A model generated the notes under the pieces. The model saw only the letters and a program-made list of their open reading frames with translations, was not told where the DNA came from and did no database searches. Both the position numbers and the translations under genes were made by a program. This document shows positions 7,517 to 45,104 of a DNA stretch of 64,000 nt, in pieces (within the stretch, counting starts at the first letter, position 1; each line of letters begins with the position of its first letter). The stretch covers positions 124,001 through 188,000 of the forward strand of contig NZ_JONP01000009.1 in assembly GCF_000711725.1 (NCBI RefSeq). Direction: 5' to 3'. This DNA is from Roseomonas aerilata DSM 19363 (lineage in GTDB: Bacteria > Pseudomonadota > Alphaproteobacteria > Acetobacterales > Acetobacteraceae).

Positions 7517-8019
7517 GCGATGGCGGTGATCTCGACGGAGGAGGGACCGGCGGGCGTGCGGACCGTCACCTCGTCGCCCACGCGCGCGCTCAGCAGGGCG
7601 AGCGCCATCGGGGAGGCGATGCTGATCTTGCCGGCGGCCATGTTCGCCTCGTCCTCGCCGACGATGGTGACGCGGCCTTCCTCGTCCCGCTCGTTCAGGT
7701 AGGTGACGGTCGCGCCGAAGAAGACGCGGTCGCGCTGCTTCTGGGCGGCGGGATCGACGATCTCGGCGGACTGGAGGCGATGGCCGAGGTAGCGCAGGCG
7801 CCGGTCGATTTCGCGCAAGCGGCGCTTGCCCTCCTTATAATCGGCGTTCTCGCTGCGGTCGCCGTTGCCGGCGGCCCAGGAGACGATCTCCACGACGCGG
7901 TGCCGCTCGGCCTTGCAGGCCTCGTACTCGGCACGCAACGCGGTTTCTCCGGCGGGCGTCATGTAGAACTTGCCGCGGGGCAAGCCCGGCGGCGGGGCGG
8001 CCTCGTCTTCGTCGTCCAC
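7504..8019 (-). CDS. greB: transcription elongation factor GreB
   Basis: 171 residues. An N-terminal coiled-coil finger contains WAAGNGDRSENADYKEGKRR followed by LREIDRRLRYL, the conserved GreA/GreB tip (acidic DxxENADY) that enters the RNA polymerase secondary channel and stimulates cleavage of backtracked RNA. The C-terminal FKBP-like domain holds VFFGATVTYL, ISIASPMALALL and GDEVTVRTPAG. The spacing and the VFFGA motif point to GreB rather than GreA. The GTG at 8019 gives the family's usual length; a longer in-frame form adds unrelated Arg/Pro-rich sequence. The acidic leader (DDEDEA) is an extension relative to E. coli GreB. Confidence 0.92.
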   Translation of the reverse strand: MDDEDEAAPPPGLPRGKFYMTPAGETALRAEYEACKAERHRVVEIVSWAAGNGDRSENADYKEGKRRLREIDRRLRYLGHRLQSAEIVDPAAQKQRDRVFFGATVTYLNERDEEGRVTIVGEDEANMAAGKISIASPMALALLSARVGDEVTVRTPAGPSSVEITAIAYPG

Positions 8020-8074
8020 TGATCCGTCTTTCAGGCCGTTGGGACCGCGGCGCCCCGCGGTCCCCTGGTTGGGC

Positions 8075-9913
8075 TCAGCCGAGGCTGGCCGCGAAGGCAT
8101 CTGCGACGCGCCGTGCGAAAGCGCCGGGGTCGCGCGGTGCGTCGCCGTCCTGCACGCGGGCAAGGTCCAGCAGCAGGCCCGCCGCATCCGCCAGGGAGGC
8201 CTCGCCTGTGGCTTTGGCCGCGAGGGCACGGACCAGGCTGTGGCGCGGGTTGATCTCGAGCACCGGCAGGCCAGCGCCCAAGCCGCGACCGGCGCGGTTG
8301 AGCAGGCGCTGCATCTGCAGGTCCGGCCCGCCCTCCGCGGCCGCGAGGACGACGGGGCTGCCAACCAGGCGCTCGGTCGCACGTACCTCGGAGACCTGGT
8401 CCTTCAGCGCGTCCTTCAGCAGTGGGAGGAGGCGGGAGACATCGGCGGCCTCCTCAAGCGCGCCCTCCGGCGCCGCGACCTTCGAGAGGTCCACCGCGCC
8501 CTGGGTGACGCTACGGATCGGCTTCTCTTCGAAGCGGTCCAGACGCTCCGGCCAGAAGGCGTCGATCTGGTCTGACAGCAGCAGCACTTCGACGCCGCGG
8601 GCGCGGAAGCCCTCGAGTTGCGGGGAATTGGCCAGAGCCTCTGGTGCGTCGCCGGCGAGGACGTAGATCGCCTCCTGCCCCTCCTTCATGCGGGACACGT
8701 AATCGGCGAGCGATGTCCAGCCCTCCACGGCGGAGGAACGGAAGCGCAGGAGCTGGGCGATATCCTTGCTGTGCTCGGGGCTGTCGAAGAGGCCTTCCTT
8801 CAGCACGGGGCCGAAGTTCTCCCAGAACTTCGCGTAGTCCTCCGCCTCCTTCGCGCGCGCCTTCAACTCGGAGATGACGCGGTTGGTCACGGCGCGGCGG
8901 ATGCGGGCGAGGATGGGGGTGGCCTGCAGCATCTCGCGAGAGACGTTCAGCGGCAGGTCCTCGGTATCAACCACGCCGTGGACGAAGCGCAGCCAATTCG
9001 GCAGCAGCCCGGCCTCGTCGGTGATGAACATGCGGCGGACATGCAGGCGCACGCGGCTCTCGCGCTCGCCCTCCACGGCCTCGAAAGGCTTCATGCCGGG
9101 GATGAAGAGGAGGGCGGTGAAGTCCACCGTGCCCTCGGCCGTCCAGTGCAGCGTCGCCCAGGGCTCGTCAAAGACGTGGCCGAGGTGGCGGTAGAACTCG
9201 GTATAGCTCTCGGCCGTGATCTCGGACTTCGGCTTGCGCCAGAGGGCGGTGCCCTCATTGGCGGGCTCGTCCTTCCCCTCCCGCGCCACGGTGATGGGGA
9301 TGGTGATGTGGTCGGCCCACTTGCGGATCACCGCCTTCAGCCGGAAGGGCTCGAGGTAGTCGGCCGCGTCCTCCTTCAGGTGCAGGACGATGTCGGTGCC
9401 CGGCTCCGCGCGCGTGGCGGGGGAGAGGGTGAAGTCGCCGCGGCCCTCGGAGGCCCAGGTCCAGGCCTCCTCGGCCCCGGCCTTGCGGGAGGTGACCTCG
9501 ACCCGGTCCGCCACCATGAATGCCGAGTAGAAGCCGACGCCGAACTGGCCAATGAGGCTCGGCCGATCGCCGGCCGGAGCTTCCGCCAGGGACTGGGTGA
9601 AGGCGCGAGTGCCGGAGCGGGCGATGGTACCGAGATTGGTCGCCAGCTCGGCCTTGGTCATGCCGACACCGGGGTCGGAGATGGTGAGGGTGCGCCCCTC
9701 CTTGTCCGGCACCACGCGCACGGCGCCGCCCTCGGGCACGGCGGGCACGCCGCCCGTCAAGGCCTCGAAGCGGCGGCGGTCCACGGCGTCGGCCGCGTTG
9801 GCCACCAGCTCGCGCAGGAAGATCTCGCGGTCGGAGTAGAGGGCATGGACCACCAGGTCCAGCAGGCGCCCGACCTCGGCGCCGAATTCGTGGCGCTCCA
9901 CCGTCTCGCTCAC
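8075..9913 (-). CDS. htpG: HSP90-family chaperone HtpG
   Basis: 612 residues, the expected length. The N-terminal GHKL ATPase domain shows [15 protein letters not shown] (the Asn-bearing helix), DPGVGM and [13 protein letters not shown]. The middle domain carries [11 protein letters not shown], the conserved client/ATP-contact segment. The C-terminal dimerisation domain ends about ten residues after a DAFAASLG tail. The GTG at 9913 is preferred: GGAGG lies six bases upstream and the protein then begins [13 protein letters not shown] as in relatives; an in-frame TTG six bases earlier is less likely. Cytosolic stress chaperone; no heat-shock promoter was identified. Confidence 0.96.
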
Positions 9914-31511: not shown

Positions 31512-31850
31512 ATGTCGCTGGAGGATGGGCTGCAAGCGTTGTGCGACGCCTCGGCCGTGGAGGAGGACACGCCCGTCCGGGCCGAGCTTGGCGGCGAGGC
31601 CTATGCCGTGTTCCTCGTGGAAGGCGCCTTCTACGTGACGCAGGATCTCTGCACCCACGGTCCCGGCTCCCTCGCGGAGGGCTTCGTGGAGGGGTGTGAG
31701 ATCGAGTGCCCCTTCCACCAGGGAAAATTCGATATCCGCACGGGCGCGCCCACTGCCGCACCCTGCACCGAGGCGCTCCGCACCTGGGAAGCGAGGGTGG
31801 TGGACGGGAAGGTCTGCATCAACCCGGTCGAGGGGCGGAAGGCGGCATGA
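31512..31850 (+). CDS. Rieske-type [2Fe-2S] ferredoxin
   Basis: 112 residues from the ATG at 31512, with GGGAGGAAAG directly upstream. The Rieske cluster motifs are CTHGPGSL and CPFHQGKFD (C-x-H and C-x2-H, 19-20 residues apart), in the compact form of soluble ferredoxins such as BphA3/CarAc. There is no oxygenase domain. It should carry electrons from the reductase encoded at 32885 to the oxygenase at 34180. It is the first gene of the operon, and its stop overlaps the start of the PdxA-like gene by four bases. Confidence 0.92.
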   Translation: MSLEDGLQALCDASAVEEDTPVRAELGGEAYAVFLVEGAFYVTQDLCTHGPGSLAEGFVEGCEIECPFHQGKFDIRTGAPTAAPCTEALRTWEARVVDGKVCINPVEGRKAA

Positions 31851-32881
31851 ACGCGATCGGTAGGCCGCCCGCCGGAGCACCGCTTCCGCGCATCGCCCTG
31901 GCGCTGGGCGACCCTGCGGGGATCGGGCCTGAGATCGCGCTGAAGGCTGCGCTCGACCCGCGCGTGCGCGCCGCCTGCCACCTGCTGCTGGTGGGCGACC
32001 GCCGGGCGCTGGACTTCCACGCCCGCGCCTGCGGCATCGCTGCGCCGGTCCAGGTCGTTCGCTCGGCAAGGGAGATGCCGGAAGCGGAAGGCGTGGTCCT
32101 GCTCGACCTCGACGGCTTTGGGGAGGAGCCGCTGGCCCCCGGCGAGGTGCGCGCCGCTCATGGGCGCGCCGCCGTCGAGGCTGCTTCCGTGGCCATCCGC
32201 GCGGCCATGGAGGGCGCGGTGGAGGCCGTTGCCGCCTGCCCGCAGACGGAATTCGCCATCAAGGCAGCGGGCATCGACTTCGATGGCTACCCGACCTTCG
32301 TCGCGCGCTGCACCGGCACGCCGGAGGAGGACGCCTTCCTCATGCTCTGCTTCGACACCAAGCGGATCGTGCACACGACATTGCATGTCGGTTTGCGGCA
32401 GGCGATCGACCTCATCACGAGGGAGCGGGTGCTGCGGGTGCTGGAGGCGACGCGCGCGGTGCTGGTCAAGCTCGGCGTCGCCGCGCCCCGCATTGCCGTG
32501 TCGGGCCTGAACCCGCATGCGAGCGAGCACGGGATGTTCGGCAACGAGGAGGCGGAGATCATCGAGCCCGCGATGGAGGAGGCCCGCGCGCGCGGCATCC
32601 TCTGTGAGGGCCCGTTCGGCGCCGATACGATGTTCCACAAGCCGGGCTACGACGCCTTCGTGGTGATGGTGCACGACCAGGGCCACCTAGCCGCCAAGCT
32701 GCTCGCGACGAACCGCACGGCGGGCATGACGATCGGCACGCCCGTGCTCTTCTCTTCCGTCGCGCATGGAAGCGCGCTGGAGATCGCCGGAAGCAACAAG
32801 GCGAGCCCCGAGGCGGTGGTGGAGGCGCTGCTGCGGCTCTCCGGTGCCGCGATGCGCGCCCGCGCGGAAACGGTGGCCTGA
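31847..32881 (+). CDS. PdxA-family dehydrogenase, probably TphB-like cis-dihydrodiol dehydrogenase
   Basis: 344 residues. PdxA-family signatures are ALALGDPAGIGPEIALKAAL at the N-terminus, a metal His in TTLHVGLRQ, SGLNPHASEHGMFGNEE and VMVHDQGHLAAKL. PdxA makes the pyridoxine precursor, but the homologue TphB oxidises and decarboxylates the terephthalate cis-dihydrodiol. Here the gene lies between a Rieske ferredoxin and its reductase, overlapping the former by four bases, so a dihydrodiol-type substrate made by the neighbouring oxygenase is far more likely than vitamin B6 synthesis. The specific substrate is inferred, not shown. Confidence 0.85.
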   Translation: MNAIGRPPAGAPLPRIALALGDPAGIGPEIALKAALDPRVRAACHLLLVGDRRALDFHARACGIAAPVQVVRSAREMPEAEGVVLLDLDGFGEEPLAPGEVRAAHGRAAVEAASVAIRAAMEGAVEAVAACPQTEFAIKAAGIDFDGYPTFVARCTGTPEEDAFLMLCFDTKRIVHTTLHVGLRQAIDLITRERVLRVLEATRAVLVKLGVAAPRIAVSGLNPHASEHGMFGNEEAEIIEPAMEEARARGILCEGPFGADTMFHKPGYDAFVVMVHDQGHLAAKLLATNRTAGMTIGTPVLFSSVAHGSALEIAGSNKASPEAVVEALLRLSGAAMRARAETVA

Positions 32882-32884
32882 GCG

Positions 32885-34138
32885 ATGGACGATCTGACGG
32901 AAAAGGGCGTTGTCGTCGTCGGTGCCGGCCAGGCTGGCGGCAGGGCCGTGGAAGCGATGCGCACGGCGGGCTTCACCGGCCCGCTGACCCTGGTGGGCGA
33001 GGAAGTCGATCCACCCTACGAGCGGCCCTCGCTCTCGAAGGAGATGCTGCTCGGCTCCGACGAGGTCGCCTGGGTGCGGCCGCGCGAGTGGTACGAGGCC
33101 GAGGGCGTCGTGCTGCGGCTGGGCGTTCGCGTTGCGGCGATCGACCGCGCCGCCCGCAGCCTGCGCCTCGAGGATGGCTCGGTGCTGCCCTACGGTGCGC
33201 TGCTGCTGGCGACCGGTGGTCGGCCGCGGCCCCTTCCCGTGCCGGGGGCGGACCATCCGCGCTGCCACCCTATCCGCGCGCTCGCCGACACACGCGCGCT
33301 GCGGCCATTCCTGCAGCCCGGCGCGCATCTCGTGGTGGTCGGCGCCGGCTTCATCGGGCTGGAGGCCGCCTCCGCCGCGTTGAAGCAGGGCGCGCGCGTC
33401 ACGGTGATCGAGGCGACGGCGGCGGTGATGGCGCGCTGCGTGCCGGCGGAGGTCGGATCCTTCTACGCCGATCTCCACGCGCGCCACGGTGCCGACATCC
33501 GCTTCCGGACCCAGGTGACGGCGATCGAGGATGCCGGCGGTCGGCCGGTGGTCGTGCTGAGCGATGGCGAGCGGCTGGACGCTGACGCGGTGGTGGTCGG
33601 TATCGGCATCATCCCGAATGTGGAGCTCGCGCGCGATGCGGGGCTCTCCGTCGAGAACGGCATCGTGGTCGACGCCTTTGGGCGCACGGAGGATCCGTTC
33701 ATCTGGGCGGCGGGCGATGTGGCCAATCGCTTCGACGCCCGCTACGGCCGCCCGGTCCGGCTGGAATCCTGGCAGAACGCCCAGAACGCCGCGATCGCCG
33801 TTGCGCGGAACATGGTCGGGAACCCTGTGCCCTATTCCGAGGTGCCCTGGTTCTGGAGCGACCAGCACGGGCTGAACATGCAGATCTGCGGGATGGTCTC
33901 AGCCGACCTGCCCTGGGTCACCCGCGGCTCCCTCCCGGCGGGCACGGCGCTGCTGGTGCAGATGGATGGGGACCGGCCGGTCTCTGGCATCGGCATCAAC
34001 GCAGCGCGCGACCTGCGCTTCGTGAAGGAGCTGATCGCACTCGACGCGGCCGTGCCGGCGGCAACGCTTGCCGATCCTGCCACCAAGTTGAACGACCTCG
34101 TCCGCAACCTGAAGCAGGAGCTTCGGCCCGTCGCCTGA
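32885..34138 (+). CDS. ferredoxin reductase, FAD/NAD(P)-dependent (BphA4-type)
   Basis: 417 residues with two Rossmann folds: VVVVGAGQAGGRAVEAM (FAD) and LVVVGAGFIGLEAAS (NAD(P)). Also visible are the family's PYERPSLSKEMLLG segment, ALLLATGGRPR, and the FAD-closing IWAAGDVAN. The C-terminal domain is of the putidaredoxin-reductase type. It transfers electrons from NAD(P)H to the Rieske ferredoxin of this operon. It begins three bases after the PdxA-like stop. Confidence 0.93.
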   Translation: MDDLTEKGVVVVGAGQAGGRAVEAMRTAGFTGPLTLVGEEVDPPYERPSLSKEMLLGSDEVAWVRPREWYEAEGVVLRLGVRVAAIDRAARSLRLEDGSVLPYGALLLATGGRPRPLPVPGADHPRCHPIRALADTRALRPFLQPGAHLVVVGAGFIGLEAASAALKQGARVTVIEATAAVMARCVPAEVGSFYADLHARHGADIRFRTQVTAIEDAGGRPVVVLSDGERLDADAVVVGIGIIPNVELARDAGLSVENGIVVDAFGRTEDPFIWAAGDVANRFDARYGRPVRLESWQNAQNAAIAVARNMVGNPVPYSEVPWFWSDQHGLNMQICGMVSADLPWVTRGSLPAGTALLVQMDGDRPVSGIGINAARDLRFVKELIALDAAVPAATLADPATKLNDLVRNLKQELRPVA

Positions 34139-34179: not shown

Positions 34180-35466
34180 ATGCTGAGGAAGGAACAGAAC
34201 GAGCTTCTGACCCAGACCGGGCCGGGAACGCCGATGGGCGACATGTTCCGCCGCTATTGGATCCCGGCGCTGCTGGCCGAGGAAGTTGCCGAGCCCGGCG
34301 GCGCGCCGGTGCGCATCAAGCTGCTGGGCGAGCGCCTGCTCGCCTTCCGCGACAGCGAGGGCAAGCTCGGCCTCGTCGATGAGTTCTGCGCCCATCGCGG
34401 CGTGTCGCTCTGGTTCGGGCGGAACGAGGATTGCGGGCTGCGCTGCCCCTATCACGGCTGGAAGTACGACGTGACGGGGCAGTGCACGGAGGTGCCGTCC
34501 GAGCCTGAGTCGAGCGGCTTCCGCCAGAAGATCAAGCTGACCTCCTATCCGCTGGTGGAGCGCGGGCACATCCTCTGGACCTATATGGGCCCCCCGGATC
34601 TGCAGCCGCCGCTGCCCGAATGGGAGTTCATCACCGTCCGGCCCGAGCAGACCTTCTCCTCGAAGCGGCTGCAGGAGTGCAACTGGCTGCAGGCGATGGA
34701 GGGCGGGATCGATTCCGCGCATGTCTCCTTCCTGCACCGGGGCGCGCTCAGCTCCGACCCGCTGTTCAAGGGCGCCAAGGGCAACCAGTACAACCTGAAC
34801 GACAGCGCCCCCGTCTTCGAGGTGGTGGAGCACCCGAGCGGCCTTTACATCGGCGCGCGCCGCAACGCGGAGGACGGACACTACTACTGGCGCATCACGC
34901 CCTGGGTGATGCCTTGCTTCACCATGGTGCCGCCGCGCGGCGACCACCCGATCCACGGCCACTTCTGGATCCCGATCGACGACGAGAACTGCTGGGCCTG
35001 GAGCTTCGACTACCACCCCGTGCGCGATCTGACGGAGCGCGAGGTGCAGGCGATGCGCGAGGGACACGGCATTCACGTCACCTATGTTCCCGGCACCTAC
35101 CGCCCGGCCGCGAACAAGGACAACGACTACCTCATGGACCGCGCGGCGCAGAAGGCAGGCATCACCTACAGCGGCGTTTCCGGCATCGCCATGCAGGACG
35201 CCTCTCTGCAAGAAAGCATGGGACCGGTCGTAGACCGCACGCGGGAGAACCTCACCTCCACCGACAATGGCATCATCATGGCCCGCTTTCGCCTGATGAA
35301 GGCTGCGCGTGCGCTGCGAGACAAGGGTGTGGCCCCGCCGGGCTCGCGGCCGGAGGAACAGCAGGTCCGTTCCGCCGCGGTCGTGCTGCCGCCCGACCAA
35401 GCCTTCAAGGATGCCGCGAGCGAGGCGCTGAAGGCGCGCCCCGGTGTGGCGCAGGCTTCCGTGTGA
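34180..35466 (+). CDS. phthalate-type Rieske non-heme iron oxygenase, alpha subunit
   Basis: 428 residues, opening NELLTQTGPGTPMGDMFRRY as in phthalate 4,5-dioxygenase relatives. The Rieske [2Fe-2S] ligands are Cys70, His72 (CAHRG), Cys89 and His92 (CPYHGW). The mononuclear iron site is in the segment NWLQAMEGGIDSAH: Asp178 bridges, and His181 and His186 are ligands. It hydroxylates an aromatic, probably carboxylated, ring using electrons from the ferredoxin and reductase encoded upstream. No beta subunit gene is present, as expected for this homotrimeric/hexameric class. Its TGA overlaps the ATG of the next gene by one base. Confidence 0.95.
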   Translation: MLRKEQNELLTQTGPGTPMGDMFRRYWIPALLAEEVAEPGGAPVRIKLLGERLLAFRDSEGKLGLVDEFCAHRGVSLWFGRNEDCGLRCPYHGWKYDVTGQCTEVPSEPESSGFRQKIKLTSYPLVERGHILWTYMGPPDLQPPLPEWEFITVRPEQTFSSKRLQECNWLQAMEGGIDSAHVSFLHRGALSSDPLFKGAKGNQYNLNDSAPVFEVVEHPSGLYIGARRNAEDGHYYWRITPWVMPCFTMVPPRGDHPIHGHFWIPIDDENCWAWSFDYHPVRDLTEREVQAMREGHGIHVTYVPGTYRPAANKDNDYLMDRAAQKAGITYSGVSGIAMQDASLQESMGPVVDRTRENLTSTDNGIIMARFRLMKAARALRDKGVAPPGSRPEEQQVRSAAVVLPPDQAFKDAASEALKARPGVAQASV

Positions 35467-35978
35467 TGATCAGCGAGAGCGCGCGTGCGACGACGGCGGC
35501 AGAATCGGCGTTCCGGGTTCGTGCGCCCAACGCCGCGCCGCGCGCCACCCTCGTCGTCGCGCTCGACCAAGCGAGCCTCGACGTGGTGGAGGCGCTGTCC
35601 GCGCGTTCATGGAACGGCGCTGTCTTCTTCGCGCCCTCTTTCTTCGAAAGCGAGGCGCGGATCGCCGCTGGCGACGTGCAGCGATGGTTCCGCGACGTGG
35701 TCGGCCGCGCGCAGGGCTTCGTGCAGGAGGTCGAGGCATCGAACCAGGCCGTGATGATCGCGACCTCTGGCCAGGACGCGCAACTCGCGTCGGTGGTCGG
35801 CGATGCCTGCCGTTCGACGGGCACGAAGACTTGCGGCCTGATCCTGCACGATGCTGCCGCGCGGTCGCCGGAGGCTGTTTCCACGACACTCGGGCAGTTG
35901 CGCCCCTATGTCTCCATGCTGAGCGTTGTCAGCGACGAGGGCTATGTCGAGGCCATGCTCGAGGCATTGCGGGCCTGA
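35466..35978 (+). CDS. unknown 170-residue protein coupled to the oxygenase
   Basis: 170 residues, starting on the last base of the oxygenase stop (TGATG), so translation is coupled. After a disordered Ala/Arg-rich leader of about 25 residues, alternating hydrophobic strands and helices appear (ATLVVALDQASLDVVEAL, GAVFFAPSFF, QAVMIATSG, TCGLILHD, VSMLSVVSDE), suggesting a small Rossmann-like alpha/beta fold with no metal or cofactor motif I recognise. There is one Cys pair and no signal peptide. It is not an oxygenase beta subunit, which would be cystatin-like. Its place between oxygenase and regulator suggests a role in substrate handling, protection or sensing; this is a guess. Confidence 0.8.
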   Translation: MISESARATTAAESAFRVRAPNAAPRATLVVALDQASLDVVEALSARSWNGAVFFAPSFFESEARIAAGDVQRWFRDVVGRAQGFVQEVEASNQAVMIATSGQDAQLASVVGDACRSTGTKTCGLILHDAAARSPEAVSTTLGQLRPYVSMLSVVSDEGYVEAMLEALRA

Positions 35979-35981
35979 GCC

Positions 35982-36782
35982 ATGGCAGCACCCCTGATGG
36001 ACGAGGCCGAGCCGGGTGCGACGGAAGGCCGTGATTTCGTGACCGCCCTGGCGCGCGGGCTGTCGGTCATGCGCGCCTTCACCGCGGAGGACCAGGATCT
36101 CACCCTCTCGGATCTTTCGAAGCGGGTGGGGCTTTCCCGGGCGACGGTCAGGCGCTGCCTGCTCACGCTCCAGGCCCTCGGCTACGTGCAGTCCTCGGGT
36201 CATTTCTTCCGCCTCTCGCCCCAGGTGCTAACCCTCGCGCAGGCCTATCTCTCCTCCTCGCTGCTGCCACGCGTCGCGCAGCCATTCCTAGAGCGGACGA
36301 GCGAGGAACTTGGGCAATCCTGCTCGGTCTCGGTTCTCTATGGGACTGAAGTGATCTACGTCGCCCGCTCCGCGCGTCGGCGCCTTGGCTCTCTGAACCG
36401 GGACGTGGGCACCCATCTGCCGGCCTATTGCACCTCGATGGGCCGGGTGTTGCTCGGCCACCTTCCGGAAGCGGAGCTGGACCTGTTTTTCCGCAGCGCG
36501 GAGTTGCTTCCGCTGACGCCCTTTACGATCCATGACGAGGGGGAGCTGCGGCGCGCGCTCGACGTGGTGCGGCGTGAAGGATACTGCCTGGTCGATCAGG
36601 AGATGGAAATCGACCTCCGCTCGCTCGCGGTGCCCGTCCATAACGCGGCCGGCCGGGTGGTCGCGGCGCTGCACGTCTCAACCCAGGCGAGCCGGACGAC
36701 GGTCGAGGAATTGATGGGCAACTGCAAGGCCGCGCTCCGCGACGCCGCCGCGGGGATGCGGCCGTTGCTCGTCGGCGCCTGA
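35982..36782 (+). CDS. IclR-family regulator, PcaR/PcaU/PobR subgroup
   Basis: 266 residues. The N-terminal winged helix contains DFVTALARGLSVMRAF (the opening typical of the beta-ketoadipate-pathway subgroup), LTLSDLSKRVGLSRATVRRC and LLTLQALGYV. The C-terminal effector domain has SVSVLYGTEVIYVARS, AYCTSMGRVLLGHL and VDQEMEIDLRSLAVPV. Members bind aromatic acids and activate or repress ring-degradation genes. It is the last gene of the operon, so the operon is probably autoregulated, through the GTTCG-type repeats at 31439-31473. The ATG at 35982 is used; one at 35997 is possible. Confidence 0.93.
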   Translation: MAAPLMDEAEPGATEGRDFVTALARGLSVMRAFTAEDQDLTLSDLSKRVGLSRATVRRCLLTLQALGYVQSSGHFFRLSPQVLTLAQAYLSSSLLPRVAQPFLERTSEELGQSCSVSVLYGTEVIYVARSARRRLGSLNRDVGTHLPAYCTSMGRVLLGHLPEAELDLFFRSAELLPLTPFTIHDEGELRRALDVVRREGYCLVDQEMEIDLRSLAVPVHNAAGRVVAALHVSTQASRTTVEELMGNCKAALRDAAAGMRPLLVGA

Positions 36783-36809: not shown

Positions 36810-37781
36810 CTATCTGACCGACGCGCGGGCGAGCGGCGTCCAGCGGGCCACCTCCTCCTCGACGAAGCGCTTGAACTCGGGTGCGGTGAGGGCAGGGGAG
36901 ACGATGCCGTCCGCGTCCAGGCGGGCGCGGATCTCCGGCTTGGCAAGGATGCGCCGCACCTCCGCGTTCAGTCGCCCCACGATGGGCTCAGGCAGGTTCG
37001 CCGGACCCGCGAGACCGAACCAGGTCGTTGCCGTCAGCGTTGGGTAGCCGAGTTCCCGGAAGGTCGGCAGGTTCGGGAAGGCGGGTAGGCGTTCGGCGGA
37101 GCTCACGGCGATTCCGTGGAGGCGACGTTCGCGGAGCGGCTCGGCGGCGGAGGTGATGGCAATGAAGGCCGCCTCGACGGAGCCGCCGAGCAGGTCGGTC
37201 ATGCTGTTGCCGCCGCCGCGGTAGGGAATGGGCTCCATGTTCGCGCCCGTCAGCCGCGTGAACATGTCGCCGATCAGCGCGCCATGCGTGCCGGCGCCGG
37301 GCGTGGCATAGGAGACGGTCGAGTTGCCCTTTGCCGCGGCGAGGACATCCGCAAGGCTGCGGTTCGTGGCCTGCGGGCCGACGACGAAGGCAACGGGCGG
37401 ACCACCGAGATAGGCAATGTGCGTGAAGTCGCGCAGCCCGTCGAACTCCGCACCGCCGGTGTTCGTGGCGGGCGCGATCACGTGGGAAGCGATGCCGGAG
37501 ATGACGAGCGTGTAGCCGTCGGCCGGCGCCCTCGCGACCTGCGCCGCGCCGATCAGTCCCCCTGCGCCGGGACGATTGTCGACGACGAAGGGCTGGCCCA
37601 GCGCGTCCGTCAGGTCGCGAGCGATGATGCGGCCGAGCGTATCGGCGCTACCGCCGGGCGCGAAGGGCGCCACGATACGCACAGGACGCTGCGGCCAGTC
37701 GGTGCCGGCGGCTTCTGCGCCGCCTGTGGCCAGATGGACGCCCAGCAGGGCCACGGATAGTCTCAGCAGGGTACGTCGCAA
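36810..37781 (-). CDS. Bug/TctC-family solute-binding protein near the aromatic cluster
   Basis: 323 residues from a TTG at 37781, with AGGAGG eight bases upstream. The signal peptide is about residues 1-25 (SVALLGVHLATGGAEAA). The family pattern follows: WPQRPVRIVAPFAPGGSADT, VVDNRPGAGGLIGAAQVA, VSYATPGAGTHGALIG, GGSVEAAFI and LPTFRELGYP. It binds a carboxylated solute in the periplasm. In terephthalate and phthalate clusters of other bacteria a TctC homologue (TphC) has this role, so the ligand is probably the oxygenase substrate. It is divergent from the aldolase-family gene. Confidence 0.92.
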   Translation of the reverse strand: MRRTLLRLSVALLGVHLATGGAEAAGTDWPQRPVRIVAPFAPGGSADTLGRIIARDLTDALGQPFVVDNRPGAGGLIGAAQVARAPADGYTLVISGIASHVIAPATNTGGAEFDGLRDFTHIAYLGGPPVAFVVGPQATNRSLADVLAAAKGNSTVSYATPGAGTHGALIGDMFTRLTGANMEPIPYRGGGNSMTDLLGGSVEAAFIAITSAAEPLRERRLHGIAVSSAERLPAFPNLPTFRELGYPTLTATTWFGLAGPANLPEPIVGRLNAEVRRILAKPEIRARLDADGIVSPALTAPEFKRFVEEEVARWTPLARASVR

Positions 37782-37921
37782 GGCTGTTTCCTCCTCTTGT
37801 GTTTCTATCGGCGTGAATGGCCTGCCGGTGACGGCTAGCTTCGGGCGCTCCGCCGGATCCTAGCGTGGCATGCAGCGCACGGCACAGGTGGCAGGCGAAC
37901 AAGAACAGGAGACGCGGACGG

Positions 37922-38611
37922 ATGATTCATCAGATGGCATCAGGATTCGATGCGCTCGACAAGGCACTTCTCGTGGATGCGTTGCGCATGCTCGAAGGCG
38001 CGGAGATGATCGACCATAGTGGCCATGCGAGCGTGCGCCGCGCTGGACGCATCCTCATCAACGACGCCGTGGCGCCGAAGAGACGTCTCACCGCCGCCGA
38101 TCTGGTGGAGATCGACCCGGAGGGACAGCGGCTCGCAGGGACGGGGCGGCCGCCACTCGAGTTTCATATCCACACCGAGATCTATCGGCGGCGCCCCGAT
38201 GCGGGCGCGGTGATCCACCTGCACCCGCGCTGGTCGACGCTGCTCACCAGCGTGGGTGCGCCCTACAGGCCTGTCTTCGCCCAGGGCGCGCTGCTCGGTG
38301 ATATCCCCGTCTACGACGATCCGATGTCCATCAACACGCGGGAGGCGGGCGCGGCGCTGGCGGCAGCCCTCGGTGCCGGGCCCGCGATCCTGCTGAAGGC
38401 GCATGGCGCGACCGTCGTGGCGGAGGATCTCGTCACCTGCTTCGCCCTGGCCGCCTATCTCGAGGAGAACGCCTCGCGCCAGGTCGCGGCGTTGGGCATC
38501 GGCACGCCCTTCGTGTTCGACGACGTCCAGCGGGCCCGGATCCGCGAGCGGCTCTGGTCCATGAGCCTCTTCCGGAAGACCTGGGACCACTATCACGCCC
38601 GCCTGGGCTGA
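37922..38611 (+). CDS. class II aldolase/adducin-family protein, possible aromatic decarboxylase
   Basis: 229 residues from the ATG at 37922 (AGGAG ten bases upstream; an ATG at 37934 is also possible). It shows DHSGHASVR, FHIHTEIYRRRPDAGAVIHL, HPRWSTLL with two metal His, and ILLKAHGATVVAEDL with the third His. Family members are zinc- or manganese-dependent aldolases of sugar phosphates, but several in aromatic catabolism decarboxylate dihydroxylated aromatic acids (for example 3,4-dihydroxyphthalate decarboxylase). The position beside an oxygenase cluster favours the latter. The usual phosphate-binding sugar-aldolase residues cannot be judged by eye. Confidence 0.85.
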   Translation: MIHQMASGFDALDKALLVDALRMLEGAEMIDHSGHASVRRAGRILINDAVAPKRRLTAADLVEIDPEGQRLAGTGRPPLEFHIHTEIYRRRPDAGAVIHLHPRWSTLLTSVGAPYRPVFAQGALLGDIPVYDDPMSINTREAGAALAAALGAGPAILLKAHGATVVAEDLVTCFALAAYLEENASRQVAALGIGTPFVFDDVQRARIRERLWSMSLFRKTWDHYHARLG

Positions 38612-38710
38612 GCCCGTTTAGGCCTGATCGCCGGGTGCCCGATCGGCGGGCGCGACGTTACGCGGGCCGCTGCGTTGCTGTCCTGGAAAAGACGGAACAG
38701 GGTTGAGCCC

Positions 38711-40714
38711 ATGAGTACCACCATCTCGCCGGAGCCGCGGCCGCCGGTCCAAGTTCAGCCGCCGCCATCGCCCGAGCTCGCGCACCTCGTCAACGTGGTC
38801 GTGGGGGTCGTGATCGTCTCCGCGCTCTATCTCGCGCGGGAGGTGCTGATCCCCATTACGTTGGCAATCCTCCTCTCCTTCGTGCTGGCGCCGCTGGTGG
38901 CGCTGCTCCGGCGCGTCGGGCTTCCGCATGTCGCCGCCGCACTGCTGTCAGTGGTGCTGGCGCTCGGGGTGCTCTCGCTCGTCGGTAGCATCATCGGCGT
39001 ACAGATCGCGGGGCTCGCGAGCAATGCGCCGAGCTACCAGACTGCCATTCAGCAGAAGGTGGAATCGGTGCAGGGCGCCGCCTTTGGCCGGATCAACGAG
39101 CTTTCGCGCCGCTTGAACAACCAGTCCACCCCCGCCGGGGCGCCGGACGGCGCAGCGCCTGCGGCGCCTATGCCGCCGGTGGAACGTCCGGCGCTTCCTG
39201 GTCTCCCGGGTTCCGAAAGCAGTGGAGACCGCCGGCCGATCCCAGTGGAGATCCAGCAGGGCGGCTCCTCCACGATCGAGCTGGCGCGGAAGTTCCTTTC
39301 GCCGGTCCTCGGCCCGCTGGAGACGACGCTCATCGTCTTCATCGTGGCCGTCTTCGTCCTCATGCAGCAGGCGGACCTTCGGGACCGGCTGATACGGCTT
39401 TTCGGGTCGAGCGACCTTCACCGGACGACGGAGGCGCTGGACGACGCGGGGCGGCGGCTGAGCAAGTACTTCCTCGCGCAGCTGATGCTCAACGGCGCCT
39501 TCGGCGTGATCATCACCATCGGCCTCTACGTCATCGGCGTGCCGAGCCCGATTGTCTGGGGCATCCTTGCCGCGCTCTTCCGCTTCGTGCCCTATGTGGG
39601 CTCGATCCTCGCGGCCGCCCTGCCGCTCGTGCTCGCCGCCGGCACTGAGCCCGGCTGGGCCACCGTGCTCTGGACCGCCGCCCTTTTCGCGATCGCCGAG
39701 CCGGTGATGGGGCAGGTGGTGGAGCCGCTGGTCTACGGGCACAGCACCGGCCTCTCGCCGGTTTCGGTCATTGTCGCCGCGATCTTCTGGACCTGGCTCT
39801 GGGGCCCCATCGGACTGATCCTCGCCACCCCGCTCACGCTCTGCCTCGTCGTCCTCGGGCGGCATGTCGAGCGGCTCGCCTTCCTCGACGTCATGCTCGG
39901 CGACCGGCCAGCGCTCACACCGGTAGAGAATTTCTACCAGCGCATGCTGGCAGGAGACACGGACGAGGCGCTTTCCCAGGCGGAGACCCTGCTGAAGGAC
40001 CGTTCTCTCACCGCCTATTACGACGAGGTGGCGCTGCAGGGGCTCCGGCTCGCGGCGAACGACGTGGAGCGCGGTGTGCTGCCACCGGACCGTTTGGAGC
40101 GGCTACGTAACGCCGCCTCAGGCCTGGTCGGCGACCTTGCCTCGGTCCCCGATGAGGATCCTTCGCCGAAGGCCGCCGCCGCAGCCGCGGAGAAGGGTAC
40201 GATTGAGCCGCCGCGCGAGACCGCACCCTCGGTGCCTCTTCCGCCTCTGGCGGAGCGGCCGGGCGCCTGGGCCGGGGAGCGGCCTGTCCTCTGCCTCGCG
40301 GGGCGCGGCCCGCTGGATGAGGCGGCCTCGGCCATGCTGGCGCAGCTCCTCTCGAAGCACGGCGTTGGCGCGCGGGTCGTGCCGCACGAGGCGAGTTCCC
40401 GCGAGCAGGTCGGGCATCTCGACACCACGGGAGTGGCGATGGTCTGCATCTCCTACCTCGATATCTCCGGCAGCCCCGCGCATCTCCGCTACCTTCTGCG
40501 CCGTCTGCGACAGAGGCTGCCAGGCGTGCCGCTGCTGGTCGGCCTCTGGCCGGAAGGGGAGGCGGTGCTGACGGATAAGGCCCAGGCAAAGGCGGTCGGG
40601 GCCGACTACTTCACGGCCTCGCTGCACGATGCGGTGACGCAGTGCCTGAAGGTCGCGAGCGGCGCGGCGCCGCCGCCGCAGGCGGCCGTGCCCGCCGGCG
40701 GCCAGGCGGCCTGA
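38711..40714 (+). CDS. AI-2E/PerM-family transporter with long cytoplasmic C-terminal extension
   Basis: 667 residues. Transmembrane helices cluster at about 25-85 and 195-395, with a soluble loop of about 110 residues in between (residues 85-195, Pro/Gly-rich) as in the PerM family. Conserved features include PYVGSILAAALPLVLA, EPVMGQVVEPLVYG and GLSPVSVIVAAIFWTWLWG. The extra C-terminal ~265 residues start with a helical segment (FYQRMLAGDTDEALSQAETL) and end in an alpha/beta domain (RPVLCLAGRGPLDEAASAML, VAMVCISYLDISGSPAHLR) resembling a B12-binding or Rossmann fold. Export of small solutes is assumed for the family; substrate unknown. Confidence 0.88.
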   Translation: MSTTISPEPRPPVQVQPPPSPELAHLVNVVVGVVIVSALYLAREVLIPITLAILLSFVLAPLVALLRRVGLPHVAAALLSVVLALGVLSLVGSIIGVQIAGLASNAPSYQTAIQQKVESVQGAAFGRINELSRRLNNQSTPAGAPDGAAPAAPMPPVERPALPGLPGSESSGDRRPIPVEIQQGGSSTIELARKFLSPVLGPLETTLIVFIVAVFVLMQQADLRDRLIRLFGSSDLHRTTEALDDAGRRLSKYFLAQLMLNGAFGVIITIGLYVIGVPSPIVWGILAALFRFVPYVGSILAAALPLVLAAGTEPGWATVLWTAALFAIAEPVMGQVVEPLVYGHSTGLSPVSVIVAAIFWTWLWGPIGLILATPLTLCLVVLGRHVERLAFLDVMLGDRPALTPVENFYQRMLAGDTDEALSQAETLLKDRSLTAYYDEVALQGLRLAANDVERGVLPPDRLERLRNAASGLVGDLASVPDEDPSPKAAAAAAEKGTIEPPRETAPSVPLPPLAERPGAWAGERPVLCLAGRGPLDEAASAMLAQLLSKHGVGARVVPHEASSREQVGHLDTTGVAMVCISYLDISGSPAHLRYLLRRLRQRLPGVPLLVGLWPEGEAVLTDKAQAKAVGADYFTASLHDAVTQCLKVASGAAPPPQAAVPAGGQAA

Positions 40715-41175: not shown

Positions 41176-43050
41176 TCAACGCCCGAGGAAGCCGGTGGAG
41201 ATCCAGGGCACCGCCGCCACCACGAGCAGCCCGACAAGCAGCGCGCCCATATACGGCCAGATCCTCCGCATGGCTGCGTCCGGGCTCACCCGCCCGATCG
41301 CACAGGCGGCATAGTAGCCGACGCCGAAGGGCGGCGCGAAAAGGCCGAGGCCCATCGCGAGGATGACGACGATCGCGTAATGCACCTCGTCCACACCGAG
41401 CTGCCGCGCGATGGGAAAGAGCAGCGGCCCGAAGAGGACGATGGCGGGAATCCCCTCGAGGATGCTGCCCAGCACGATGAAGGCGAAAATCGAGACCAGC
41501 AGGAAGCCCCAGCGGCCGCCGGGCATCGCCTGCATGGCCGCCGCCAGATCGCGCGAGAAGCCCGACTGCGTCAGCGCCCAGGCCATCCCGGTCGCTGTGC
41601 CGATGATGAGCAGGATCGCGCCCGAAAGCGCCGCTGTCTCGACCAGCATCGGGTAGATCCGTCGCCAGTCGAAGCTGCGGTAGAAAACCAGCCCGGCGAC
41701 GACGGCGTAGCCGATCCCGATGGTCGATACCTCGGTCGCTGTCGCCACGCCCTCCACCACCGCCGCGCGGATGAGGAAGGGCAGGACGAGTGCCGGCAGC
41801 GCGACCAGCAAGGCCTTGAGGATCACGCCCGCCGAGGGACGCTGCACGCCCGACATGTCCTCATCCCGCGAGCGCCGCCAGGCGATGACGGCCAGCGCCA
41901 GCGCGAGCACGAAGCCGGGCAACAGACCGCCGGTGAAGAGCGCGGCGATGGAAACGCCGGTGACGGAGCCGATGGTGATCAGGACGAGCGAGGGTGGGAT
42001 CGTCTCGCTCATCGCGCCCGAGGCGGAAAGCAACGAGACCATCTCGCCCTCATTCGATCCGCGCCGCCGCATCTCGGGGAAGAGCACCGGCGCCACCGCC
42101 GCCATGTCCGCGGCCTTGGCGCCGGAGATGCCGGAGACGAGATACATCGCCCCGAGCAGCACGTAGGACAGGCCACCCCGGACATGGCCGAGCAGCGAGG
42201 CGAGGAAATCCACCATCGCCTTCGCCATGCCCGTCATCTCGATCAGCACGCCGAGGAAGACGAAGAGCGGCACGGCCAGGAGGATGAGGGAGCTCATCCC
42301 CTCATCCATGCGGCTGACGATCACCGTCAGCGGCACGCTGGTGGTTGTCGAAAGATAGGCGAGGGTCGCGAGGCCGAAGGAGAAGCCGATCGGCACGCCG
42401 GAGAGAACGCCAAGCATCAGGAGGCCGACGAAGAAGACCATGAGGTTCCAGTGCCCCATGCCCTTGATGGCCGGCCCGAGCAGCCAGAACAGCCCAGCGA
42501 TCGCGCCCAGCCCCGCCGCGACGATCAGGAGGTCAACCGCGCGATGGCGCAGGAGCCGGACGGCGCAGGTCGCCAGCATGAGCGCGCAGCCGACGGGTAT
42601 GGCGCCCGCGCGGATCATGTTGGACCAGCCGAGCGCCGGGGTCTCAATGAACCACTCGTCCTCCGCGTATTCGGCGGCTTGCGGCAGGATCGCCGCGAGG
42701 AAGAGCGCGCTGGCGCCGACCGCCAACACCTCCAGCAGCACCTGCGCACGAGGCGGCAGGGCCGTGACCAGCGCGGTCAGCCGCATGTGCTGACCGCGCT
42801 GGAGCGCGATCACCGAGCCTAGCATGGCCAGCCAGAGGAAGAGGATCGAGGCCAGTTCGTCGGACCAGACGATGGGCCGGTGCAGGGCGAAGCGCGCGAC
42901 GACGCCCGCGAAGAGGATGCCGATCTCCGCGAGCACGATGAGGGCCGCCGGAACCTCGACAAGGTGGCGCAGGAGGCGCTCGGCGAGCGCTGCGACCCCG
43001 GCCTCGCGCCTCTCCGCCACTGTGCCCTCCGAGCCGACCGCCACGCTCAC
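41176..43050 (-). CDS. TRAP transporter permease, DctQ-DctM fusion
   Basis: 624 residues. Residues about 30-185 form the four-helix small subunit DctQ (RFALHRPIVWSDELASILFL, RGQHMRLTALV). About 195-624 form the large subunit DctM with 11-12 helices and signatures VPIGFSFGLATLAYL, SGISGAKAADMAAVAPVLFPEM, GAMSETIPPSLVLITIG and GLFAPPFGVGYYAACAIG. It moves a carboxylate or similar solute across the inner membrane using sodium or proton gradients, fed by the binding protein encoded upstream. The GTG at 43050 overlaps that gene's stop by four bases. Confidence 0.94.
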   Translation of the reverse strand: MSVAVGSEGTVAERREAGVAALAERLLRHLVEVPAALIVLAEIGILFAGVVARFALHRPIVWSDELASILFLWLAMLGSVIALQRGQHMRLTALVTALPPRAQVLLEVLAVGASALFLAAILPQAAEYAEDEWFIETPALGWSNMIRAGAIPVGCALMLATCAVRLLRHRAVDLLIVAAGLGAIAGLFWLLGPAIKGMGHWNLMVFFVGLLMLGVLSGVPIGFSFGLATLAYLSTTTSVPLTVIVSRMDEGMSSLILLAVPLFVFLGVLIEMTGMAKAMVDFLASLLGHVRGGLSYVLLGAMYLVSGISGAKAADMAAVAPVLFPEMRRRGSNEGEMVSLLSASGAMSETIPPSLVLITIGSVTGVSIAALFTGGLLPGFVLALALAVIAWRRSRDEDMSGVQRPSAGVILKALLVALPALVLPFLIRAAVVEGVATATEVSTIGIGYAVVAGLVFYRSFDWRRIYPMLVETAALSGAILLIIGTATGMAWALTQSGFSRDLAAAMQAMPGGRWGFLLVSIFAFIVLGSILEGIPAIVLFGPLLFPIARQLGVDEVHYAIVVILAMGLGLFAPPFGVGYYAACAIGRVSPDAAMRRIWPYMGALLVGLLVVAAVPWISTGFLGR

Positions 43051-44054
43051 GAGAGGCTCCCGACGGCGCCTTCCAGCACGGACCAGGCCTGGTCACCGAA
43101 CTTGCCGCGCCACTCCGCGTAGAAGCCGGCCTTGCGGAGCGCCTCGCGGAAGGGGGCCGGGTCGACGTCGTTGAAGGTGAGGCCACTCCCGCCCAGCTTG
43201 CCCGTGAGCGCGCTGTTCAGGGCGGCGATATCCGCGCGCTCCTCCTTCGCGGCGCGGCTCATCTCCCGCGAGATGACGGCCTGCACGTCGCGCGGCAGGC
43301 GCTCGAAGGCGCGGCGGTTCGCCAGCAGCCAGAAGCCGTCCCACATGTGGTTCGTGACGGAGCAGAACTTCTGGACCTCGTAGAGCTTGGCGGTATCGAT
43401 CACCGCCAGCGGGTTCTCCTGCCCGTCCACGATCTTCGTCTGCAACGCCGAATAGACCTCGTTGAAGTTGATCGAAGCGGGTGCGGAATCGAAGGCGCGG
43501 AACATGGAGGTCCAGAGCGGGCTGACAGGCACGCGCAGCTTCATGCCGCGCAGGTCCTCGGGCGCGCGGACCGGCTTCGTGCTCGTCGTGACCTGGCGGT
43601 AGCCGTTGTCGAAGATGTTCTCGAAGGCGATCAGGCCGCGCTTCTCGATCTCGGCGCGGATCAGCGCGCCCACCGGCCCGTCCATCGCGGCCCAGACCTG
43701 GTCGTAGTCCTTGAAGGCGAAGCCGACGCCGTTCAGCGCGGCCAGCGGCACGAGGGTCGCGAGGATCAGGCCCGAGAGGGTGAAGAACTCGAGCGCCCCC
43801 GAGCGCACCTGGCTCAGCATGTCCGTATCGGAGCCGAGCTGGCTGTTCGGGAAGAGCTGCATCTCCACGCGCCCGCCCGTGCCGGCCTTGATGCGCTCCA
43901 TGGCGTGCCCGATCCGCAGGTTCATGGGGTGCGTTGCGGGCAGGTTGGTGGCGAGCTTGAGGTTGAAGTCGGCCGCCGCCGCGGGGCGCGTCCGCAGGGC
44001 GACGAGCGGCAGGGCGGCGGAGGCCGCGAGCAGGCGGCGCCTGGTATTGGGCAT
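43047..44054 (-). CDS. TRAP transporter solute-binding protein (DctP family)
   Basis: 335 residues from the ATG at 44054, with GGGGGAAAGC upstream; a longer frame adds only junk. An Arg-rich signal (NTRRRLLAASAALPLVAL) ends near PAAAAD. The DctP fold shows ATNLPATHPMNLRIGHAME, FPNSQLGSDTDMLSQVRSG, LRGMKLRVPVSPLW with the Arg that clamps the ligand carboxylate, and the C-terminal INFNEVYSALQTKIVDGQEN. The ligand is unknown. It is the first gene of a two-gene transporter operon. Confidence 0.94.
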   Translation of the reverse strand: MPNTRRRLLAASAALPLVALRTRPAAAADFNLKLATNLPATHPMNLRIGHAMERIKAGTGGRVEMQLFPNSQLGSDTDMLSQVRSGALEFFTLSGLILATLVPLAALNGVGFAFKDYDQVWAAMDGPVGALIRAEIEKRGLIAFENIFDNGYRQVTTSTKPVRAPEDLRGMKLRVPVSPLWTSMFRAFDSAPASINFNEVYSALQTKIVDGQENPLAVIDTAKLYEVQKFCSVTNHMWDGFWLLANRRAFERLPRDVQAVISREMSRAAKEERADIAALNSALTGKLGGSGLTFNDVDPAPFREALRKAGFYAEWRGKFGDQAWSVLEGAVGSLS

Positions 44055-44180
44055 GGACGAGCTTTCCCCCGGATAGCGTGCTGTTCTTGGCGCCGCCCGC
44101 GGGTGATCCAGCCGGCTGGGCGCACGGCCGGGATTATGGACCACTTCGTTGCAGCGAAGCCAAGGGCTGCCGTGGCCGGT

Positions 44181-45104
44181 TCAGGGCCGCCCCAGCGGTG
44201 CCGCCGGCCGCGCCGCCCGGCCGAGGAAGGCAGGGCCAGCGATCTCCTCCGCTACCATCCCGCGGTTGAGATCGAGGCCGGTGAGCCGCCAATCGTGTAC
44301 CGGCAGTGGAAGCGGGCGGATCAGCCGCTCGTGGAAGCGGGTGGGCAGGCGGAGGCCGCCGGCCGTAATGAAATCAAAAAGGTCCACCTCCGCGACCGCG
44401 CCGCGGGTGCTCTCGAGCCCGTTGAGGGAGAAGCGCACCCGCCGCATCAGCCCCTCGCCTCGGTCGATGAAGAGGGCGAGGTCGTCCGCCTCTGAGAAGC
44501 CGAGGCCGGGCGAGACGCGGACGCGGAGCACGTCACAGTCGTGGCCCACCCCGTCGAGGTCCACCCGCTCGGTTCCGGCGAGGGCGAGCCCCACGGGACG
44601 GCCGGCAGCGCGGAGGTGGGCGAGGCTCATCGGGCCCAGGAGGAAAAGGCCATAGCCGTCGACCACCAGCGCCGCGGCGGCGCGGCGTTCCGTGTCCACC
44701 GCCTCCTCGCCGTTGAACCAGACGCGGACCTCACCTTGCGCGGCCGACGACTCCTTACGGATGACGTTCTTCCGGCCCATCGGACCGCGATGCTCCTGCC
44801 CCACCAATCCTGGCCGGAGCAGCACCCGCTCCTCGGAGCTTCCGCGGAATCCCTTGTCCACCAGGACGGGCTGGAGCCGATCAATCAGCCCCGGCCACTC
44901 GCCGGAATAGCTCACGCTGATGTCCGCGAGCCCCGCGAGTGCCCGGGATCCATGCGCCTCGGCGCTGCGGCCGAGCAGGGCAGCCGCCTCGGGCGCCGCT
45001 TGACCCGCGGGCATCGGCGTCAGGGGAGGGGCGCAGCCCTGCAGCGCCGGCAGGGCGAGCGAGGCCAGGAGGAGGCCGCGACGGCGGGGGAGGGGGTGTT
45101 GCAA
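44181..45104 (-). CDS. predicted lipoprotein of unknown function
   Basis: 307 residues from a TTG at 45104, the only start that keeps the signal sequence. An Arg-rich n-region (PRRRGLLLASLALP) and lipobox ALQGC place the lipidated Cys at about residue 24. The mature part alternates strands with many Val/Leu/Arg residues (ISVSYSGEWPGLIDRL, EVRVWFNGEEAVDT, VDLDGVGHDCDVLRVRVSPG, MRRVRFSLNGLEST), suggesting a LolA/LolB-like or other half-barrel fold, but I do not recognise a family. The ribosome site is weak. Confidence 0.7.
   Translation of the reverse strand: MQHPLPRRRGLLLASLALPALQGCAPPLTPMPAGQAAPEAAALLGRSAEAHGSRALAGLADISVSYSGEWPGLIDRLQPVLVDKGFRGSSEERVLLRPGLVGQEHRGPMGRKNVIRKESSAAQGEVRVWFNGEEAVDTERRAAAALVVDGYGLFLLGPMSLAHLRAAGRPVGLALAGTERVDLDGVGHDCDVLRVRVSPGLGFSEADDLALFIDRGEGLMRRVRFSLNGLESTRGAVAEVDLFDFITAGGLRLPTRFHERLIRPLPLPVHDWRLTGLDLNRGMVAEEIAGPAFLGRAARPAAPLGRP

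Follow-up and report, generated by a model that had tools for sequence, protein, structure and literature searches.

The window analysed here, a stretch of 64,000 nucleotides from Roseomonas aerilata DSM 19363, holds a plus-strand catabolic cluster in the order ferredoxin, PdxA dehydrogenase, reductase, oxygenase, u and IclR regulator, where u is our working label for the gene at 35466-35978 (+). From an ATG start, u encodes a protein of 170 amino acids, a single-domain FtsZ-like protein without GTP-binding motifs that accompanies one clade of isophthalate-dioxygenase-like Rieske oxygenases. The gene upstream of it, at 34180-35466 (+), codes for the alpha subunit of such an oxygenase (428 amino acids; Pfam Rieske and LigXa_C), and its stop codon TGA (35464-35466) forms with the start of u a TGATG overlap at 35464-35468 in which one base is shared. 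An earlier reading of the window from its letters only (hereafter the sequence-only reading) had described this overlap and the 170-residue product correctly; it took u for a Rossmann-like protein that could be an undescribed auxiliary of phthalate-type oxygenases. According to a genome search, u is present in one copy in the window genome, which also encodes an ordinary FtsZ separate from u.

The reading frame of u is more than a chance product, because it is near-identical in two Roseomonas genomes (92% and 95% identity), because the nucleotide differences from these are mostly synonymous (57.5 of 73 and 37 of 46), and because homologues are found in two phyla. The gene evolves faster than the oxygenase, yet it is clearly constrained by purifying selection: the ratio of nonsynonymous to synonymous rates (dN/dS) against the two Roseomonas genomes is 0.064 and 0.069 for u versus 0.047 and 0.011 for the oxygenase. 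Apart from these two, the relatives show 16-41% identity to u. Among 21 proteobacterial loci the median pairwise identity is 35% for u and 76% for the oxygenase, and the amino-acid differences in u amount to approximately 2.7 times those of its partner. The 28 members collected in alignment A2 are 152-175 amino acids long and have only L33, R146 and L168 in common as invariant positions, R146 being the sole polar one. Since the first round of profile iteration drew in rows resembling ferredoxin reductases, rows below 100 bits were removed before A2 was built, and the near-identical row L077 was excluded from it.

At the N-terminus, residues 3-26 of u (35472-35543, +) form a proteobacterial extension with the motif S-E-S-A-R...E..F-R...P-N...P-R (alignments A1, A2 and A6); R17 and R26 never vary in it, and E13, F16 and N22 are almost invariant. 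This extension lies outside the part that can be aligned to FtsZ and is mostly absent from the actinobacterial members. Residues 27-163 (35544-35954, +) align to the FtsZ GTPase domain, namely to residues 13-171 of Spiroplasma FtsZ; these limits combine an hhalign alignment (residues 27-159) with a VIA-align superposition of a low-confidence structure model (residues 28-163).

Pairing of u with the oxygenase

Relatives of u are located beside the same oxygenase in the family of the window, in rhizobia, and in Caballeronia, Rhodococcus and Arthrobacter. In the family sample, u was matched in 13 of 299 genomes. Two weak and partial matches without a nearby oxygenase were dropped as chance hits (G015 and G198, E about 0.009); they fall inside frames of 1312 and 379 codons, and no oxygenase was found in the corresponding loci L012 and L013. 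All of the remaining 11 loci (E<=1.6e-9) carry the oxygenase directly upstream, the ten other than the window at 73-79% identity to the window's oxygenase. When the same genomes were searched with the oxygenase, it was found in 17 of them at 19 places, which we count as 18 genes because the two places in G051 are overlapping contig-end pieces of probably one gene. The next gene is u in 11 cases, and in three the contig ends there (G094, G280 and the second copy of G019). In the class sample of 385 genomes, nine give strong oxygenase matches, 16 places in all, with u at the window and in G675. Some of the genome searches with an alignment as query scored the best 9 of up to 124 candidates per genome, and distant members were possibly missed.

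The plasmids show the pairing over a wider range of hosts. The oxygenase was found in 122 plasmid records, and among the best 40 listed, all 17 with an oxygenase 58-77% identical have u at a distance of at most 4 kb; the two records listed next, at 52%, are devoid of it over their whole length. Plasmid searches with u itself gave 18 records, of which that of Rhodococcus GA1 is the only one without the oxygenase. The oxygenase-u order of the window recurs on the rhizobial plasmids. An alcohol dehydrogenase gene stands between the two in Caballeronia (read from the sequence), and Rhodococcus and Arthrobacter show the order oxygenase, alcohol dehydrogenase, u, reductase; in R. fascians this order is interrupted by an ABC transporter.

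Altogether 27 loci contain both genes. The single-base overlap occurs in four of these (the window, L015, L016 and L057), the other 15 directly adjacent loci show a gap of 4-76 nt (with the nearest ATG taken as start; three starts are uncertain), and in the remaining eight other genes lie between oxygenase and u. Thus the pairing of the genes is a conserved feature, while the one-base overlap, which the sequence-only reading had stressed as tight coupling, is genuine in the window but a local detail.

A tree of 50 oxygenases comprises 27 with u, 20 without and 3 for which this cannot be told. The u label requires at least five changes on this tree, four of them forced by well-supported branches, compared with 15 for shuffled labels. 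Both the actinobacterial and the proteobacterial clades contain oxygenases with u, and the absences inside the proteobacterial clade are most simply explained as losses. The distance matrices of u and oxygenase are correlated with r=0.86 over the 27 loci and r=0.90 over the 21 proteobacterial ones (Mantel p=1e-4). In summary, u is bound to one clade of isophthalate-dioxygenase-like oxygenases, some members of which lack it. The neighbourhood survey thus found u conserved beside the oxygenase in other genomes, where the sequence-only reading would have been refuted by a lack of such conservation; its auxiliary is indeed a companion of the oxygenase, but of this one clade and not of phthalate-type oxygenases in general. 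A functional link between u and the oxygenase is, in our judgement, likely.

Two side observations concern single loci. In L062 of G051 (1064-1738), and by eye also in L066 of G129, two tandem proteins of the Lin0512 family (PF09585) occupy the position of u and are possibly a replacement accessory. In locus L073, the plasmid of Rhodococcus sp. GA1, u and a PDR/VanB reductase gene lie at 6827-8430 beside an alpha/beta dioxygenase-PdxA cluster; this arrangement is likely a deletion relative to R. fascians pGS01 (L071), where u has 98% identity to that of GA1.

Relationship of u to the FtsZ GTPase domain

Family databases do not name u. No Pfam or NCBIfam model reached its curated cut-off, the best E-values among the 28 members being 0.005 and 0.0065; four members searched against PHROGs had no match at E<=0.1, and no relatives were found among viral contigs. 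The identities that the sequence-only reading had discarded find no model here either. Neither Pfam nor NCBIfam lists a Rieske beta subunit family for the window protein at E<=10 or matches u to a dehydrogenase family, and a 2Fe-2S ferredoxin is rejected for lack of a family match as well as of conserved cluster-binding cysteines, four of the 28 members being free of cysteine. Matches to ObcA_N (E=0.03), acVLRF1 (E=0.017), F420_oxidored, PfkB, SIS and others are scattered, stay below cut-off and concern at most three of the 28 members each. Three weak genome matches were recognised by eye as FtsZ (L020, L021) and a SIS-domain protein (L019).

Profile searches lead to a single family. Compared with 177,635 PDB chain sequences, the A2 profile finds FtsZ as the sole significant family (best E=1.2e-7); rows 1-45 are all FtsZ, and the next row is a designed protein at E=0.086. 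The actinobacterial subset alone (A5, 8 rows) likewise reaches FtsZ as the only significant family, with E=1e-8 and 1.1e-5 for the best single stretch. In direct hhalign comparison with an FtsZ profile, the two subsets, each taken alone, give E-values of 8.8e-6 and 6.9e-7 (valid for a single comparison) at probabilities of 83% and 92%, and the alignment is co-linear over the core of u. The whole of A2 scores 58.0 against 11 FtsZ domains, compared with at most 20.6 for column-shuffled FtsZ (100 trials), 10.3 for reversed FtsZ, 22.1 for ferredoxin reductase, 20.7 for alcohol dehydrogenase and 11.5-14.4 for four more families. Specificity was examined with A2 (E<=0.01) in 13 genomes or plasmid records that contain the oxygenase without an adjoining u, or with the contig ending there. 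Six of them gave one match each and seven gave none; all six matches are FtsZ proteins with the GGGTGTG loop.

Structure prediction points, with low confidence, in the same direction. A model of u was built from three near-identical sequences, and a second look with VIA-align places FtsZ at ranks 1, 2, 3, 5, 6 and 7 (Z 10.3-9.1 over 123-131 residues), the top match having Z 10.3 over 123 residues at a root-mean-square deviation of 3.4. The confidence of the model is low, and an unrelated phosphoribosyl pyrophosphate synthetase reaches Z 9.5 in the same comparison, so that we take the ranking as support, not proof. Further points weigh against a descent from FtsZ. The scores of the model are a predicted local distance difference test (pLDDT) of 52.9 and a predicted template modelling score (pTM) of 0.49, and Foldseek returned nothing significant for it, with FtsZ at rank 22. 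The proteobacterial subset alone, which includes the window protein, reaches FtsZ first in the PDB search but with E=0.05, and an earlier profile of 13 rows (A1) did not find FtsZ there.

These points would fit a generic Rossmann-like resemblance, with u a member of some other alpha/beta family, known or new. The many alpha/beta matches of the low-confidence model in Foldseek, the weak Pfam matches to several Rossmann families and the insignificance of the proteobacterial subset are all in its favour. We nevertheless regard it as highly improbable, given that FtsZ is the only significant PDB family for both A2 and A5, that each of the six genomes or plasmid records with a match yielded FtsZ and nothing else, and that other Rossmann proteins score far lower in hhalign. 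Descent of u from the FtsZ/tubulin GTPase domain is, in turn, very probable. The alternating Rossmann-like fold proposed from sequence is supported and, by sequence relationship, can be sharpened to a degenerate FtsZ/tubulin GTPase domain. A fold search had been suggested as a check, and it puts FtsZ on top in VIA-align and gives no significant match in Foldseek. A match to a known unrelated family, named there as a counter-argument, has been found in FtsZ, yet in a motif-less single-domain version.

Homology to the FtsZ GTPase domain does not make u an FtsZ proper. The tubulin signature [SAG]GGTG[SAT]G of the T4 loop and the glycine-rich T1 signature (GG.G.N) are found in none of the 28 u proteins and in all of 11 FtsZ controls. 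In the window protein, the approximate place of the T4 loop in the hhalign alignment is residues 98-106 (35757-35783, +), where the signature GGGTG[ST]G is missing. The u proteins also lack helix H7, the T7 loop and the C-terminal domain, judging from the length of 152-175 amino acids and from the best structural alignments (VIA-align ranks 1-3 of the low-confidence model), which stop at FtsZ residue 171. Hydrolysis and polymerisation by FtsZ require these three elements. Hence u appears to be a single-domain, FtsZ-derived pseudo-GTPase which, to judge from its sequence, would not bind nucleotide.

FtsZ and tubulin are regarded as filament-forming GTPases. In view of its homology to FtsZ and of the separate FtsZ of the window genome, one might suppose that u, as a truncated FtsZ-like protein, acts on the host FtsZ by capping or slowing Z-ring assembly, which would couple cell division to aromatic catabolism. 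This we consider extremely improbable: the hosts in which u accompanies the oxygenase are unrelated to one another, u lacks the polymer interfaces that GTP and the T7 loop provide, and no division gene is among the listed neighbours. In contrast to FtsZ, which its core resembles in profile and co-linearity and, with a low-confidence model, in best structural alignment, u resides in catabolic operons beside a Rieske oxygenase.

The nearest described odd relatives of FtsZ that we found are FtsZl1 and FtsZl2, both larger than u and compared here by their description (Makarova and Koonin 2010, PMC2875224). They are diverged, and implicated in membrane remodelling, and FtsZl1 is likewise described without confident T6-H7 elements. 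Unlike u, however, FtsZl1 continues into a coiled-coil plus a helical domain C-terminally and FtsZl2 has approximately 300 extra amino acids; both were recognised via a region or search including the GTP-binding loop (PMC2875224). Our literature searches showed no published link between FtsZ and an oxygenase among the papers listed; the one paper that mentions both FtsZ and a Rieske oxygenase deals with a two-component system in Streptomyces. The passages on tubulins in conflict systems in PMC7159879 do not concern oxygenases. For the Arthrobacter plasmid pA58H3, passages of PMC6305408 name p21, p24, p26 and p27 of the cluster, and p25, the position where u would fall, is not mentioned in them.

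Proposed role of u beside the oxygenase

The closest solved relative of the window oxygenase is the isophthalate dioxygenase (IPDO) 9INA/9IOY (PDB search, E=3.6e-145). In Comamonas testosteroni KF1, IPDO and its reductase are described as forming a two-component system, the oxygenase being an alpha3 trimer, with R234 and H257 as carboxylate- or substrate-binding residues and D174 as the bridging residue (PMC12445078). Passages on its cluster iphA2CBA1 name dioxygenase, reductase, transporter and dehydrogenase, without mention of u (PMC12445078). With the numbering transferred via a Comamonas endophytica relative, R234, H257, D174 and V178 are kept in all 27 oxygenases paired with u, including that of the window. 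These residues are not specific for such oxygenases: among 20 without u, R234 and D174 are found in 20 and H257 in 16. From the conserved substrate-binding residues, a meta-dicarboxylate or a close analogue is likely the substrate. The enzymes paired with u differ from IPDO at other substrate positions. All 27 have Asn at position L198 and Ile at F333, while at F249 Arg is found in 21 and Phe in the six actinobacterial ones; the window oxygenase has L198N, F249R and F333I. The Arg at the F249 position suggests a substrate with an extra acidic group.

We propose that u is produced together with the IPDO-type oxygenase and would most likely bind directly to its alpha subunit, as an accessory subunit without catalytic activity that would stabilise or tune the enzyme. 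It would thereby fill the place which other Rieske oxygenases give to a beta subunit or to a second trimer, and the proteobacterial N-terminal extension would be the best candidate for the contact. Like the beta subunit of alpha3-beta3 Rieske oxygenases, u is small and its gene directly follows that of the alpha subunit; it matches no Pfam or NCBIfam beta-subunit model, however, and we take the fold of beta subunits to be a different one.

A role on the electron-transfer side, where u would dock to or regulate the reductase or ferredoxin, is the first alternative to be considered. In all seven annotated actinobacterial loci u stands directly before the gene of the PDR/VanB reductase, and the GA1 plasmid retains the u-reductase pair without the oxygenase. 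The redox partners nevertheless vary. The window has a Rieske ferredoxin and an FAD reductase, L022 and L023 have a flavoprotein reductase with an N-terminal Fer2 domain, and L026 has a PDR/VanB reductase with a C-terminal Fer2 domain. Three reductase architectures thus occur among the loci with u that were examined; that u stays while they change argues against electron transfer. Moreover, the window's reductase gene lies upstream of the oxygenase, a regulator separates u from the reductase in L022 and L023, and no cysteine is conserved, four of the 28 members having none. We therefore hold this role to be improbable.

Somewhat less improbable, though still unlikely, is that u is a small-molecule sensor or a pathway enzyme, with a Rossmann-like pocket binding a substrate, an intermediate or another nucleotide; it would then act on the oxygenase product or regulate flux without stable binding to the oxygenase. 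The Rossmann-like fold itself is compatible with this, as is the persistence of u in GA1 without the oxygenase, and u adjoins a gene for a zinc-type dehydrogenase in Actinobacteria and in Caballeronia (the latter read from the sequence). An active or ligand-binding site is hard to reconcile with three invariant residues in 28 sequences, of which R146 alone is polar, and with the fast divergence (median identity 35% over the 21 proteobacterial loci). The dehydrogenase genes near u also change, from the PdxA type in the window to the zinc type in Actinobacteria, and u stays with the oxygenase while the surrounding redox and dehydrogenase genes differ. These facts, namely the varying redox partners and dehydrogenases, the one invariant polar residue and the fast divergence, speak more for a binding partner than for an enzyme or a carrier of electrons.

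The accessory role has its own difficulties. An oxygenase of a related lineage can work without u, since IPDO is described as a two-component alpha3 trimer. Four of the 15 assessable oxygenase genes in the family sample have no adjoining u (G051, G099, G129 and G133), and a whole-genome search found none elsewhere in these four genomes or in G094 and G280. In the class sample u is missing at all of the other 14 places, including oxygenases that are 67-69% identical. The GA1 plasmid, which keeps u and the reductase and has no such oxygenase, would be compatible with a link to the reductase as well. Any two genes inherited together as an operon would be expected to show such a correlation of distance matrices, and the comparison had no control gene. 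Finally, a physical interaction of u with the oxygenase is something we infer from sequence.

Weighing all of this, we see the explanation as a whole, in which u is a one-domain FtsZ descendant without a GTP site that serves as an accessory of the oxygenase, as evenly poised between right and wrong. Direct, subunit-like binding to the oxygenase stands at or slightly below that level. More tentative is the fuller scenario of a recruited FtsZ domain that lost GTP binding, became a dedicated Rieske subunit in the position of the beta subunit or second trimer, and spread between Proteobacteria and Actinobacteria probably via plasmid transfer. If true, a cytoskeletal fold would have found its way into a catabolic enzyme system, which would widen the known uses of the FtsZ domain and add an unrecognised component to the Rieske oxygenase systems for phthalate breakdown. 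If such oxygenases are produced without u, its absence could then account for poor activity. The proposal is testable: the gene pairs are short, carriers can be cultured, and a solved oxygenase relative is at hand for comparison.

Other genes of the window

Upstream of the oxygenase, the cluster starts with a Rieske-type ferredoxin at 31512-31850 (+; Pfam Rieske, E=7.3e-18). It is followed by a PdxA-family dehydrogenase at 31847-32881 (+; Pfam PdxA, E=1.2e-73; start set at an internal ATG), which, going by known phthalate clusters, we take to be the likely dihydrodiol dehydrogenase. The FAD/NAD ferredoxin reductase of 417 amino acids at 32885-34138 (+; Pfam Pyr_redox_2 and Reductase_C) is likely the electron source for the ferredoxin. 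A sigma-70 scan gave no promoter-like site.

Directly after u, an IclR-type regulator of the PcaR/PcaU/PobR subfamily lies at 35982-36782 (+; TIGR02431, 306.2 bits versus a cut-off of 284.75), and a TctC-type solute-binding protein is encoded on the opposite strand at 36810-37781 (-; Pfam TctC, E=1.7e-52). The class II aldolase/adducin family protein at 37865-38611 (+; Pfam Aldolase_II on 37922-38608) is a possible decarboxylase; against the model for 3,4-dihydroxyphthalate decarboxylase it scores 62.7 bits, under the cut-off of 200. An AI-2E-type transporter of 679 amino acids occupies 38675-40714, with 193-392 as its best Pfam stretch and a long C-terminal part without a Pfam match at 1e-5. 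An open reading frame of 307 codons at 44181-45104 (-) has no Pfam match at 1e-5 either. Between these two, at 41176-44144, the opposite strand encodes a TRAP transporter that consists of a DctQ-DctM fusion and DctP; situated downstream of the cluster, it is a possible uptake system.

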